A stretch of 46,840 nucleotides of DNA from Deltaproteobacteria bacterium. GTDB lineage: Bacteria > Desulfobacterota > Syntrophobacteria > BM002. The notes beneath the pieces are model-generated. The model worked only from the letters and a program-made list of their open reading frames with translations. It made no database searches and was not told the origin of the DNA. How positions within the stretch are numbered: the first letter of the stretch is position 1; each line of letters begins with the position of its first letter. A program made the translations under genes and the position numbers. The stretch covers positions 1,409,249-1,456,088 of the forward strand of contig CP070689.1 in assembly GCA_020353155.1 (NCBI GenBank), in the 5' to 3' direction. Below, piece after piece: positions 42,665 through 46,840 of the stretch.

Positions 42665-43963
42665 CTACATCCTCCCATCCCTTTTAGAGTCGTAGAAGAT
42701 GTTTTTGGGCTCCTGGCCGGCTAGAAGGATTCGGTAGGAATCAACCATGAATCCTGCGATGATTTGATTGGTCATGATAACAGATGGGTCAGGCCGGTAT
42801 TTGCACGAGGCTCTGACCCTTTCTGGTGAGTCGACATCGCGCTCATCAACTATGTCGTAAAGCCCCAATAGTTCTGCAGGAGTTTTTTTGTTTTTTGTTG
42901 GATCGTAAATAACAACCTGGCCCGCATCCACGTTAGTTCCGCCACTGATCATTGTCTTTTTCTGTTCCTTGCATTTCTCACTCATAACGATTCTTGTTTC
43001 AAAATTGTCAACGCAATCGAATATAACATCATAGGATGAAATATCTGTTTGTCTCCTGAAATATTCAATCCATGAATCGGCCTCTATGCCAAATAAATTA
43101 TGCAGCCTCCTCGCCAGTGTTTCTGCTTTGCTCTTCCCCACGGCATCGTAAAATAGAATCTGCCGGTTCAAATTTGTTGTCTCAGCCACATCAGGATCCA
43201 TAAAGGTGCTTCGCCGAAATCCTGTATATGCAAGCCCGAGACCTAGGAAAACTCCCAAGGCCCCTGAACCGGTCACCAGTATCCTTTGGTCTCTTGCTGA
43301 AACTTCGAGTTTGCTTCTCTCATATGAAATTATGCTCTCGGATACTTTGCCATGCATTAGAATATTCTTGGTCTCTTCCAGTGCTATTCCAGAGACAATA
43401 ATGTCGAAAACGCCGTCATCAAAATGACCTTTGGGTAGGTTGTTGGGACAGATCAGCTGGTAAAGTTCCTGCCACTCTCGTCCCTTCAAATAAGTAAATA
43501 TCTTGAAGCCTTCTTGTCCGTTCTCCTCATAGCAAAACCCCCTTATGACGGGGATGTTTTCCTTGTGACCCTTTTCCAGCAGAAGTTTGTTTGCCAGGCC
43601 GAACTGACACAGGTCTACTAATAACCTGCAGTTATTGAAAATATCATCAAGGAGGGAATGGGTGTAAAACCCTTGCAGGTGAATCAAATTGAGTCGAGGA
43701 TTTATTCTTTTTGCTGTGTTGATCAGGTTCTCGTCCAATACCGGTGCGACGACAGCTATATTGTTGACACCAAGGGCTGCCGCCGACATTATATATAGGG
43801 ATGCCAGAAGATCTTCATCGCCCACCACACCAATTTTTGCCTCATCCAGTACTTTTTGATCCCAGCCCCGAATACGCAGTTGTCGGTCAAAGCGCTCTTC
43901 GAGCGGTACTTTCTTCTCCGTAACTGGATACACCGGGGTTATTTCGTCATCTACAGAATACAT
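42665..43963 (-). CDS. Two-domain ThiF/E1-like adenylating protein
   Basis: Last gene of the putative ubiquitin-like operon. Numbering is from the longer frame (444 residues). An N-terminal E1-type domain opens with RFDRQLRIRGWDQ (36-48), close to the YDRQIRLWG of eukaryotic Aos1/Uba1, but its nucleotide loop is degenerate (GVVGDEDLLAS). The second domain (239-429) is intact: GSGALG 244-249, DPDVAETTNLNRQ 268-280, GKSKAE 288-293 and DCVDNFETR 328-336. Cys399 before YRPDPSVIMTN is a candidate thioester cysteine. This is an Aos1-Uba2 layout in one chain. The start is uncertain: ATG43963, or ATG43999 inside repeat-like sequence; neither has a good ribosome site. Confidence 0.88.
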   Translation of the reverse strand: MYSVDDEITPVYPVTEKKVPLEERFDRQLRIRGWDQKVLDEAKIGVVGDEDLLASLYIMSAAALGVNNIAVVAPVLDENLINTAKRINPRLNLIHLQGFYTHSLLDDIFNNCRLLVDLCQFGLANKLLLEKGHKENIPVIRGFCYEENGQEGFKIFTYLKGREWQELYQLICPNNLPKGHFDDGVFDIIVSGIALEETKNILMHGKVSESIISYERSKLEVSARDQRILVTGSGALGVFLGLGLAYTGFRRSTFMDPDVAETTNLNRQILFYDAVGKSKAETLARRLHNLFGIEADSWIEYFRRQTDISSYDVIFDCVDNFETRIVMSEKCKEQKKTMISGGTNVDAGQVVIYDPTKNKKTPAELLGLYDIVDERDVDSPERVRASCKYRPDPSVIMTNQIIAGFMVDSYRILLAGQEPKNIFYDSKRDGRM

Positions 43964-44042
43964 GGCCTCACCGTCAAATGAGCATAGAGCTCTTAGCATA
44001 GAGTAAATGACAAAAAGCTAATTTCCCTATGCCCTATGCTCT
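43964..44042. repeat. CATAGAG repeat between JAMM and E1 genes
   Basis: GAGCATAGAGCTCTTAGCAT then AGAG, and CCCTATGCCCTATGCTCTC. It is related to the CTATGCT words at 36118-36200. The longer E1 reading frame runs through this segment. Confidence 0.45.
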
Positions 44043-44843
44043 CTACATTCTCTCGATGAGCTCGGGCGGCGGATTGATGTTGGGCTGGATGTTTTCCTCA
44101 ACCTCTTTGCTGAGTAGCTCTATGTCAGCCTCAGTTAAAGACCTTCCCGTGTCTATGAAGACAATATCTGAGCTTTTCTTGCTCACCATACTGTGCCCTG
44201 AGAGCACTCCCCTTTCCTTGTAGTGGATCTCTTGCTCGTGCCAACCTTCATCGTCAATGACAATGCTGTAACAAAAGCCACCGTATATTGTTTCCATGAT
44301 AGTTGCTTCAGAGATAGCCCCGTCGGTTATCAGGGAAACACTGCCTTTTTCCAGGTCACTCTCTTCGAACTCACCCTTCACCAACAAATGGAGATCCTGG
44401 ATGGGAACCTCCTTCTTGGCCACAACCCATCTGAGACGGGCAGTAACAAAATCCAGAACCGTTGCCTGGTTTTGCTCATCGGTGTGAGAAAAGTGTTTAT
44501 ACTTGAGAGCGCCATGGGAATGTATCCAGCCATTTATAATGGCGTCCGCAGGTAGGGATTCGTGATACTCAGCTATCCTTTCAGGGCCAAGGGTGGTAAA
44601 GTCTTGCAGGTTCTGATCGTTTTTGGGCAAGCCAACATCTGCTATTAGTTCGGGATTGTTCTTGTCTGCAATTGTGAACCCATACCACACATAACTCTCT
44701 TGGTGAATCTCACGAACGAGCTCATTGATTTTGAAAGCCTTAGCCTTGGCATAATTAGCCATAGTGATTTCTTGCGGCAAGGTCGCAAGGATCACTTCCT
44801 TAGGTTCAGGCCGTTCAAGCTCTGAGAGGCTTCTGAATCTCAT
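44043..44843 (-). CDS. JAMM/MPN+ metallopeptidase (deubiquitinase-like)
   Basis: Protein of 266 residues. The zinc-site pattern is Glu49 (in IHQESYVWYGF), HSH at 108-110, Ser119 and Asp122 (WIHSHGALKYKHFSHTDEQ). The HxH-to-Ser gap is one residue longer than in AMSH-type enzymes. This family removes ubiquitin-like tags or trims their C-termini. About 140 residues follow the motif, with no known domain (ends NPPPELIERM). Its ATG overlaps the stop of the ClpX-like gene by four bases, so translation is coupled. The E1-like gene follows. Confidence 0.85.
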   Translation of the reverse strand: MRFRSLSELERPEPKEVILATLPQEITMANYAKAKAFKINELVREIHQESYVWYGFTIADKNNPELIADVGLPKNDQNLQDFTTLGPERIAEYHESLPADAIINGWIHSHGALKYKHFSHTDEQNQATVLDFVTARLRWVVAKKEVPIQDLHLLVKGEFEESDLEKGSVSLITDGAISEATIMETIYGGFCYSIVIDDEGWHEQEIHYKERGVLSGHSMVSKKSSDIVFIDTGRSLTEADIELLSKEVEENIQPNINPPPELIERM

Positions 44844-45943
44844 TCCAGTCTTGACCTCACATAAGCTGCATCCACCAGGAATTCACCATTATAGGTTCCA
44901 GGCAATCTGTACATATCTTCTAATAAAACCCGATGGAGAATACTTATCAAACCCCTTGCTCCTGTCCCCTCTCTCTGGGCACGTATTGCCACTTCGGCCA
45001 AGGCATCATCACTGAACTCCAAATCGATGTCCCAGGCCTTGAGGTCGCTGGCGTAGGCCAATAGGGGACTTCCTGCACTCTTACTCAATATGTCCTTGAG
45101 ATCCTGAGTTGTGAGCCCGTCGTATACAACCTTTACAGGAAATCTTCCCATCAGCTGCCTCTCCATGCCGAAGGCTGCCAGGTCTTCTGTCATAAGGTAG
45201 TTTTTCCAGTCGCCTACCATACCCTGCCTTGACATCCGAGCCTTGACTATAGTGTCCAGGTGCTCAAAAGCTCCCCCGGCAATAAACAATACGTGTTTTG
45301 TGGACAAGGAAACTTTTTCCCTACCTAGGTCAACAACGTTCTCCACCCCATCCACCAGGTGCAGTAGCCCTTTTTGGACACCCTTGCCGGAAACATCTTT
45401 GTAGGAGACCATCTCAGTTGCCACCTTGTCAATTTCATCCAAATACACTACTCCCATCTGAGCCACATGTGGATTTCCACCCGCTGCAACTAAAAGGTCC
45501 ACCAAGATATCGGTAGCGTTTCTGCCCACGTAGCCCACCTCACTAAACCTGGTCATGTCTTCGTGGACGAATGAAACCCCCACCAATTGTGAGGCTATCT
45601 CACTGGTGTAGGTTTTACCGCAGCCAGTGGGACCTATGATCAAGATATTTGCCTTTGGGGTGCTGGTATGTCTGAGAGCGGCGTCAATATCATCACCGTT
45701 TTCAGCAATCGCCTCTTTCAGGGCTTTTCCCAGCCTCCTATAGTGAAAGGCGATAGCTGTGGAGATAACTTTCTTTCCCTTTTCCTGGCCGATAACAAAT
45801 TTGTCTATCAGTCCTTTGAGTTCAGAGGGAGTGCTGTTAAACTCAATGACTTCTTGCACAGCTTCTCTTGTCTGTTGATCCCGCATCTCTTCCATCTTGG
45901 TTTCGATGCGCTGGCGACTATGGTCTGATACCTTGTCGAACAT
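44840..45943 (-). CDS. ClpX-like AAA+ unfoldase lacking the zinc domain
   Basis: AAA+ ATPase of 367 residues from ATG45943, preceded by AGAGGTGG; a GTG three codons earlier is possible. Numbering below is from that GTG. It has the ClpX-type insert-free core: Walker A GPTGCGKT 107-114, pore loop GYVG 140-143, Walker B VVYLDEID 168-175, LLHLVDG, LFIAGGAF, arginine-finger region MGRFPVK and sensor-2 GTGARGL 329-335. The ClpX N-terminal zinc-binding domain is missing, replaced by a charged helix (1-40). The ClpP-docking IGF loop is not seen (QGMVGDW in that region). It is therefore likely a stand-alone unfoldase or remodeler for tagged proteins. Confidence 0.88.
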   Translation of the reverse strand: MFDKVSDHSRQRIETKMEEMRDQQTREAVQEVIEFNSTPSELKGLIDKFVIGQEKGKKVISTAIAFHYRRLGKALKEAIAENGDDIDAALRHTSTPKANILIIGPTGCGKTYTSEIASQLVGVSFVHEDMTRFSEVGYVGRNATDILVDLLVAAGGNPHVAQMGVVYLDEIDKVATEMVSYKDVSGKGVQKGLLHLVDGVENVVDLGREKVSLSTKHVLFIAGGAFEHLDTIVKARMSRQGMVGDWKNYLMTEDLAAFGMERQLMGRFPVKVVYDGLTTQDLKDILSKSAGSPLLAYASDLKAWDIDLEFSDDALAEVAIRAQREGTGARGLISILHRVLLEDMYRLPGTYNGEFLVDAAYVRSRLE

Positions 45944-45954
45944 CTTCACCACCT

Positions 45955-46524
45955 CTATATTACTTGGCTACCTTCAACCTTTGTTATGAAGTTCTGCAAC
46001 TGCTCAATGCGTTTTTCTAAAGGGTCCTGGAGTAAGCGCTCGTTTTCGAGTGATGATTTCTCTCTACCTGGACCCATTGGCTTGCGATGAGTCAATTCTT
46101 TTATGTCGATCTTTGCCTGCTCATATAGCAACAGCGTTTCAAAATGATAACTCTCCAGTTTCTCTGCCCCGAGAGCGGGATTTAGATCAAACAAGAGTTT
46201 GCTCAAGGCAATTTCCTCTGGTGTCTGGGCGAACTCCAGATAAGGGTTATTAATCTTGTCGATGATTGCTAGGGTTACAACATATTCATTTTTCTCTATT
46301 AAAGAGAACAAGGGAATCCTGAAAGGCTGCTTTCTCCTTACTCTGGCAAACTCTGCCTTTTCCTCGATGAGGAAATCTTCAGGGCTTTCAAGTTTTTCGA
46401 GGAAACTCTCTTCCAGACCGTACTCCTTTACCAACCCACTTACTCGATTGAAAAGAGTTGGCCTCAAGAACTCTTTTTTCTTTTTTTGCGCCCTATCACT
46501 CTTTATTTGTTGTAATAAATTCAT
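45955..46524 (-). CDS. Unknown 189-residue protein of the ubiquitin-like operon
   Basis: I do not recognise this protein. It has a basic N-terminus (KSDRAQKKKKEFLRPTLF), a mixed alpha/beta middle and a charged, helix-prone C-terminus (NERLLQDPLEKRIEQLQNFI) that could be a coiled coil. There is no TM, signal peptide, cysteine cluster or Gly-Gly end, so it is not an obvious ubiquitin-like modifier. It ends about 11 bases before the ClpX-like start, which suggests a linked function such as substrate adaptor or target. A GGTGA about 10 bases upstream may be its ribosome site. Confidence 0.7.
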   Translation of the reverse strand: MNLLQQIKSDRAQKKKKEFLRPTLFNRVSGLVKEYGLEESFLEKLESPEDFLIEEKAEFARVRRKQPFRIPLFSLIEKNEYVVTLAIIDKINNPYLEFAQTPEEIALSKLLFDLNPALGAEKLESYHFETLLLYEQAKIDIKELTHRKPMGPGREKSSLENERLLQDPLEKRIEQLQNFITKVEGSQVI

Positions 46525-46610: not shown

Positions 46611-46838
46611 CTATATTCTATAATCATCGAATTCCACAGTTTTGACATATTGCCTTGGGTCATCGAGGCTGTGATATCCCCTTCGACGCCTGGCGTCGTA
46701 GCCGTGAAGCAAGGCATTGAACCCTTCCTCCAACACCTGAATAATATTCCTTGCACTAAACTCTTGTGGCGGGTGGAACCCTGTCAGACAGATCTCTTGC
46801 CCCGAATCGTGAGCGTATAGAAATGGATGCTTGTATTT
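46611..46838 (-). CDS. E2 (UBC-fold)-like protein, C-terminal part
   Basis: Partial gene running off the right edge; 75 residues are visible and no start is in the window. Near the edge it reads KHPFLYAHDSGQEICLTG, which matches the E2 catalytic pattern HPN...G.ICL, so the cysteine at 46788-46790 is the probable thioester site. Next comes a helix of E2 type (SARNIIQVLEEGFNALLHGY), then a basic stretch (DARRRGYHSLDD) and the end KTVEFDDYRI. Position as the first visible gene of an operon with E1-like, JAMM and AAA+ genes supports the call. The catalytic Asn of HPN is replaced by Phe, as in some bacterial E2s. Confidence 0.7.
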   Translation of the reverse strand, partial: KYKHPFLYAHDSGQEICLTGFHPPQEFSARNIIQVLEEGFNALLHGYDARRRRGYHSLDDPRQYVKTVEFDDYRI

Positions 46839-46840
46839 TT

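Follow-up and report, generated by a model that had tools for sequence, protein, structure and literature searches.

The window, that is, the whole stretch of 46,840 nucleotides of DNA that was analysed, carries towards its end a minus-strand gene for an E1-like activating enzyme. The same strand carries genes for a JAB/JAMM metalloprotease, a ClpX-like AAA+ ATPase, a conserved protein here called X and the C-terminal part of an E2-like protein, the last of which is cut by an assembly gap (Table 1). An alternative ATG of the E1 gene, upstream at 43999, would extend the protein to 444 residues. The 432-residue form is preferred because the nearest relatives conserve M1-YSVDDEITPVYPV and an SD-like sequence precedes the start.

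Table 1. Coordinates in the window of the genes, domains and residues discussed in the text; residue numbers refer to the 432-residue E1
Feature	Position	Strand	Evidence
E1-like activating enzyme, 432 aa, two ThiF-type halves	42665..43963	(-)	Frame, Pfam, AlphaFold, Foldseek, relatives
Inactive adenylation half (IAD), residues 22-214	43322..43900	(-)	MoeB/ThiF profile matches, Rossmann fold in AlphaFold model, hhalign to AAD
Arg-finger motif R24-F-D-R27-Q28	43880..43894	(-)	Invariant 35/35; aligns with MoeB R11-YN-R14-Q
Degenerate IAD nucleotide loop GVVGD, residues 45-49	43817..43831	(-)	Sequence and alignment of 35 relatives
Active adenylation half (AAD), residue 216 to C-terminus	42668..43318	(-)	PF00899, 2e-31
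Intact Gly-rich nucleotide loop GSGALG, residues 232-237	43253..43270	(-)	G232, G234 35/35; G237 34/35
ATP-coordinating motif N264-L-N-R267-Q, MoeB R73 equivalent	43160..43174	(-)	35/35; PMC12355090
K279, MoeB K86 equivalent	43127..43129	(-)	35/35
D319, MoeB D130 equivalent	43007..43009	(-)	35/35
C387, crossover-loop Cys at MoeB C187 / ATG7 C507 position	42803..42805	(-)	35/35 relatives
JAB/JAMM metalloprotease, 266 aa	44043..44843	(-)	Motif common to relatives
JAMM motif H-S-H-x8-S-x2-D	44478..44522	(-)	Sequence and alignment
ClpX-like AAA+ ATPase, 367 aa from ATG (GTG at 45952 possible)	44840..45943	(-)	Pfam/NCBIfam, ClpX alignment
Protein X, 189 aa, conserved in operon, no known family	45955..46524	(-)	Pfam and relatives' loci
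C-terminal fragment of E2-like protein (KYKHPFLYAHDSGQEICL...)	46611..46840	(-)	Cut by 100-N assembly gap at window end

An earlier note on this DNA had described the protein as a one-chain E1 with a degenerate first half and an intact second half, and this description is borne out by the sequence, by 35 relatives, by the AlphaFold model and by profile comparisons. The Pfam ThiF match (PF00899, 2e-31) covers the C-terminal half. A profile made from 35 N-terminal halves matches MoeB at 2.9e-12 and ThiF at 5.8e-9, and aligns with the profile of the C-terminal halves at 2.5e-16 (hhalign). Given these three matches, the two-half pattern is not a product of chance. Both words quoted in the note are present in the 432-residue protein: RFDRQLRIRG begins at R24, in the IAD, and NLNRQILF spans residues 264-271, in the AAD. 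As had also been claimed, the C-terminal half contains all the adenylation motifs that define the ThiF/E1 superfamily (GxGxxG, D, NxxRQ, K and D), here G232-S-G-A-L-G, D256, N264/N266/R267, K279 and D319. The N-terminal half is a homologous, degenerate copy that has indeed lost the Gly-rich loop, which reads GVVGDEDLLAS, while the C-terminal half is devoid of an RQ motif of its own ahead of the nucleotide loop. The losses are thus complementary, as one composite site predicts. Thirteen residues (R24, R27, Q28, G232, G234, D256, N264, N266, R267, Q268, K279, D319 and C387) are invariant in the 35 relatives, which are bacterial and DPANN; the sole exception among the residues tested is G237, kept in 34 of 35. 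In one relative (L049:4609-6003), the two halves are separated by an inserted collagen-like linker rich in Gly and Pro.

The fold of the N-terminal half, on which the earlier description hinged, is a ThiF-type Rossmann fold both by model and by profile. The AlphaFold model, built from eight relatives (pLDDT 71, pTM 0.80), gives both halves a beta-alpha-beta Rossmann core; pLDDT is low over residues 1-32 and the crossover loop, where the contact between finger and site is not resolved. Using Foldseek, the whole chain, both halves included, was matched to the single-chain UBA7 (E 9e-15, TM 0.64 by query length), and further full-chain matches were to UBA1, UBA6 and the bacterial E1 of 8tz0. The model and these matches agree with an intramolecular pairing, which the note had suggested checking: the two halves are predicted to pack as a pseudo-dimer like that of UBA7 or UBA1. 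Arginine fingers have been described in MoeB (Arg14) and in ThiF (Arg11); they are not essential in either enzyme, and that of ThiF comes from the neighbouring subunit (PMC13139853); in human UBA1, Arg57 helps hold the position of the gamma-phosphate (PMC12355090). In the window's E1, the arginine finger of the N-terminal half would reach the active site of the C-terminal half.

The claim that this pseudo-plus-active layout is of a eukaryotic type stands as far as the predicted UBA7/UBA1-like pseudo-dimer is concerned, but not as regards its absence from bacteria, since BilD also combines an IAD with an AAD (PMC11354881). A special likeness to Aos1-Uba2 was not recovered. The IAD profile has its best matches in MoeB and ThiF and, among eukaryotic IADs, matches NAE1 alone, weakly; the AAD profile scores 97.9 bits with Uba2 against 88 bits with Uba4 and MoeB, values too close to discriminate. 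A specific kinship to eukaryotic E1s was therefore rejected. The first place of UBA7 in the Foldseek ranking does not argue for kinship, since a homodimer has no single chain that could be matched along both halves. The phylogeny set the halves, from bacteria and DPANN, against bacterial references, eukaryotic E1s being compared by profile only. In the resulting 52-row tree, the IADs group apart from the AADs (100/100 and 94/87), and bacterial and DPANN members are found in both groups. A recent internal duplication of the E1 is rejected on account of this split, and the mixed membership of both groups suggests that the two-half chain is old, within the limits that long branches set to the tree.

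C387 (Cys399 in the earlier note, which had singled it out) is conserved in all 35 relatives. It lies 68 residues beyond D319, versus 57 between D130 and C187 of MoeB, with no inserted domain. This is where ATG7 has its catalytic cysteine, on the crossover loop (PMC12355090). ThiF and MoeB also have a crossover cysteine, yet form no thioester with their carrier (PMC13139853), and so conservation of the cysteine alone proves nothing: it permits thioester chemistry at C387 but does not prove it.

The full operon, in the order Ubl, E2-like protein, X, ClpX-like AAA+, JAMM protease, E1, was found with all six genes on one strand and in one cluster at 20 loci, a few loci starting with E1. In the window, the AAA+ and JAMM genes share 4 nt; across loci, the overlap measures 4 nt at 19 of 21 and 1 nt at the other two. 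The window's JAMM protein has no match in Pfam, and its best relative scores 16.5 bits against PF14464 (Prok-JAB), below the cut-off of 25; no other peptidase gene was seen in the operon. The AAA+ protein shares with ClpX the AAA+ core, retaining Walker A, Walker B and the GYVG pore loop. It differs from the genome's own ClpX, a full-length protein with its docking loop (C1:605856-606950), in lacking a zinc domain at its N-terminus, and the 13-residue loop that bears the [LIV]GF ClpP-docking tripeptide is deleted from every member. Its NCBIfam ClpX score is 246 bits, under the curated cut-off of 359 bits.

The Ubl is a protein of about 122 aa ending in ...I[KR]PQEGG, with PQEGG in every Desulfobacterota member. 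Its C-terminal Gly-Gly, as expected of a modifier, is either exposed or masked by a tail: several copies (L010, L050-L053) stop exactly at GG, and in others the chain continues with R, L, IYL or a longer tail. At two loci (L039:3618-4436 and L042:12299-13111) the Ubl is joined through ...PQEGG to a domain that by eye resembles a GNAT acetyltransferase; such a fusion may be a natural precursor for cleavage by the JAMM protease. Profile searches with the Ubl against Pfam, PADLOC and PDB profiles gave no significant or meaningful match, ubiquitin variants appearing only at E ~0.2. The E2-like protein (361-403 aa) belongs to no family that could be matched; Pfam and PADLOC searches member by member, and PDB profiles, gave nothing significant or meaningful. 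Across 20 divergent members, from bacteria to archaea, a cysteine (C308 in the copy at L036) is invariant, and H295/P296 and Q-x-I/L-C are near-invariant. By eye, the stretch before the cysteine, FPxCRVAV...YKHPFL......GQxICL, looks like the E2 pattern. An AlphaFold model from seven sequences (pTM 0.58, the Cys loop being of low confidence) contains a helix, beta strands, the HP..C element and a helix; compared with PDB folds by Foldseek, it had no match. Prok-E2_B occurs in three other genomes of the phylum and is absent from that of the window, and no alignment was obtained between the E2-like profile and three Prok-E2_B proteins (hhalign). Motifs and context suggest a Ubl (beta-grasp) fold and an E2 (UBC) fold, respectively, for these two partners, neither of which the profile and fold searches confirmed.

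The E1 N-half profile was found in 21 of 395 genomes drawn from the phylum, representing 13 of 245 genera, and the E2-like profile in exactly the same 21 genomes. Where the E1 lies away from the other operon genes, these are found elsewhere in the genome. One genus (L054-L056 with L079 and L080) has its E1 far from the remaining operon; in two of its members the N-half loop reads GSGPYPAS, and the crossover region carries insertions. At another locus (L005:4827-5201), a gene for a small GxxExxY-like protein sits between the E2-like gene and X. Several neighbours of the operon loci look like housekeeping genes. At the sensitivity used, no relative was found in phages with the E2-like query or in viral contigs with the E1 and E2-like queries, and plasmids returned only ThiF-domain matches of the E1 and no operon relative. 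In the window's own assembly, which consists of contigs joined by 100 N (window 46840 / L003:6090-6189 / L036), the operon is present as two halves: a second place holds complete Ubl and E2-like genes (E2-like at C1:2750532-2751629, L036), followed by another 100-N gap. The two parts are about 93% identical where they overlap, and the split is apparently due to strain variation or mixture. No description of this gene set was found in the open-access papers searched; the six-gene operon is apparently undescribed so far.

Relatives also occur in DPANN archaea. One copy (L011), from a Woesearchaeota assembly, is nested among bacterial ones in the AAD tree. It is either a transfer or, less likely because its neighbours include TrmB-like regulators (recognized by eye), a product of misbinning. 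Among 279 genomes of the same phylum as this assembly, six more have a distant two-half E1. Most of the neighbourhoods of these six encode a JAMM protein and a protein showing the HPF..C pattern, together with a Ubl candidate that has GG or GA close to its end, where the bacterial Ubl has GG. An AAA gene lies within ~6 kb at only two of the seven DPANN loci (L070:9657-11150 and L074:9789-11270), where a proteasomal-type AAA ATPase (PF00004) adjoins the E1, the JAMM protein and the Ubl candidate; PF17758 scores above its cut-off in the ATPase of L070, and the C-terminus of neither ATPase has an HbYX motif. Some DPANN relatives retain a GSG-type loop in the N-terminal half of the E1, so that its loss is probably a derived state in the lineage of the window. 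The bacterial operon showed no candidate for an E3. One DPANN E1 (L071:6194-7828) has an N-terminal Cys-rich stretch, CPTANC..CSAC..CNFC, which could be a treble-clef or RING-like domain and possibly a built-in E3. Downstream of the DPANN cluster, two genomes encode a protein of ~570 aa (L073:2433-4130 and L072:1417-3135), part of which, in the L073 copy, reads like a protein-kinase core (SQEKEILERVDNPNIVRYFGTYDI).

The anatomy of the E1, the invariance of its residues, the operon, the co-occurrence of the E1 with the E2-like protein and the loss of the docking loop point to the E1 of a system for Ubl conjugation whose coupled unfoldase has no protease, a reading to which I assign a probability of about 70%. 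Weighing against it are the lack of profile or fold matches for the Ubl and the E2-like protein, the crossover cysteine that ThiF and MoeB carry without thioester formation, the lack of a visible E3 and the small share of DPANN loci with an AAA gene nearby. In such a system, the JAMM protease would trim the Ubl precursor after the invariant Gly-Gly. The C-terminal half of the E1 would then bind ATP and adenylate the exposed glycine, while the N-terminal half, unable to hold ATP, would complete the site across the pseudo-dimer with the arginine finger of its RxxRQ motif. C387, on the crossover loop, would take the Ubl as a thioester; the E2-like protein would then receive it on its invariant cysteine and pass it to targets. 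The AAA+ unfoldase, unable to dock ClpP by the usual loop, would pull on proteins that bear the Ubl, and the co-translated JAMM protease would meanwhile free the Ubl, the two acting as a segregase plus deconjugase.

A reading in which the Ubl tags proteins for degradation would depart from this scheme in the last step only: the AAA+ would feed a protease, either ClpP through some other contact or another peptidase, as a counterpart of the ubiquitin-proteasome system. The pore loop of the ClpX-like AAA+ and the proteasomal-type ATPase at two DPANN loci are compatible with this, but the docking loop is deleted from every AAA+ member, a separate full ClpX with that loop is encoded in the genome, the DPANN ATPases lack HbYX, and JAMM is the only peptidase gene of the operon; degradation thus keeps a minor, though real, share of the probability. 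It is unlikely that the enzyme instead activates a sulfur carrier, in which case a ThiF/MoeB-type reaction would adenylate a GG-ended carrier for conversion by a sulfurtransferase to a thiocarboxylate destined for a cofactor or thiolated tRNA. The operon has no gene for a rhodanese or desulfurase and none for thiazole or molybdopterin; conserved instead are a partner with an invariant cysteine, the unfoldase and protein X, and one half of the E1 has lost its site, unlike the homodimeric MoeB and ThiF. Nevertheless, MoeB and ThiF are matched by the profiles of both halves, the crossover cysteine of these enzymes does no thioester chemistry (PMC13139853), and JAB proteases are described in sulfur-carrier operons too (PMC1779556).

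An anti-phage role of the Bil type was also considered, since BilABCD likewise comprises a Ubl, an E2, a JAMM protease and an IAD+AAD E1 (PMC11354881) and since the distribution of the present genes is sporadic (13 of 245 genera). The E1 has no helical Cys domain, however, the Ubl is single-domain, two extra genes are conserved, the partner genes have no convincing PADLOC match, and the plasmid, phage and viral-contig searches yielded none of these operons, several of whose neighbours are housekeeping-like; a Bil-type function is accordingly rated as quite unlikely. The remaining alternative concerns the E1 itself, which might dimerize through its C-terminal halves like MoeB, leaving the N-terminal half as a substrate- or partner-binding domain. 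The low pLDDT of the finger region and the crossover loop leaves some room for this arrangement, but the full-length UBA7/UBA1 match spans both halves as a pseudo-dimer, R24, R27 and Q28 are invariant and no RQ motif is left in the AAD, so that I regard it as very unlikely.

If the conjugation-unfoldase reading is true, the operon adds a bacterial and archaeal Ubl cascade in which an E1, a putative E2, a JAMM protease and an AAA+ motor are encoded together, and raises the question of whether prokaryotes have a form of ubiquitin-coupled unfolding that involves no proteolysis. A bolder proposal, which I hold only tentatively and consider somewhat less probable than its negation, is that of a self-contained prokaryotic Ubl system in which tagging is coupled to an unfoldase plus deubiquitinase and not to a protease, with a ClpX-derived, Cdc48-like segregase devoid of a ClpP dock, a proteasomal-type ATPase as the motor in some DPANN, and a further E1 design. 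That design would unite a canonical pseudo-dimer body with a noncanonical crossover-loop cysteine. Since DPANN relatives keep more of the lost nucleotide loop, the order of the losses is testable.

Comparison with known systems places the enzyme as follows. BilD is likewise a bacterial one-chain E1 with an inactive N-terminal half and an active C-terminal half, so the layout as such is known; it has a helical Cys domain of ~80 aa (Cys417), whereas the window's E1 has its cysteine on the crossover loop, and BilA has two Ubl domains, ISG15-like, where the operon's Ubl, judged by its length, has one (PMC11354881). What sets the present system apart from BilABCD is the layout without a Cys domain and the AAA+-linked operon, in which X and the ClpX-like AAA+ are conserved. 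The Cap2 operons and neighbourhoods 6a-6e of the Iyer 2006 survey also gather E1, E2 and JAB in one operon, but the window's operon has neither an E2-E1 nor a JAB-E1 fusion; the part of the survey consulted contains neither the present operon nor any mention of an AAA+ in prokaryotic Ubl operons, ClpS being the only Clp link (PMC1779556). The canonical eukaryotic E1s (UBA1, UBA7, SAE1/UBA2 and NAE1/UBA3) share the IAD+AAD pseudo-dimer, the IAD arginine and the intact AAD motifs. The window's E1 lacks their FCCH/SCCH cysteine domains, 4-helix bundle and UFD: at 432 aa versus ~1000, the chain stops straight after the last AAD elements, with no C-terminal ubiquitin-fold domain. ATG7, UBA4 and UBA5 share the position of the crossover-loop cysteine and the lack of a separate cysteine domain, but are homodimers with two active sites, in contrast to the single chain and single active site of the present pseudo-dimer. 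MoeB and ThiF, the closest sequence relatives of the IAD, share the adenylation residues and the position of the cysteine, but are symmetric sulfur-carrier homodimers without E2-like, JAMM or AAA+ partners. With its pseudo-dimer core and its crossover-loop cysteine, the design of the window's E1 lies between the MoeB-type dimers and UBA1.
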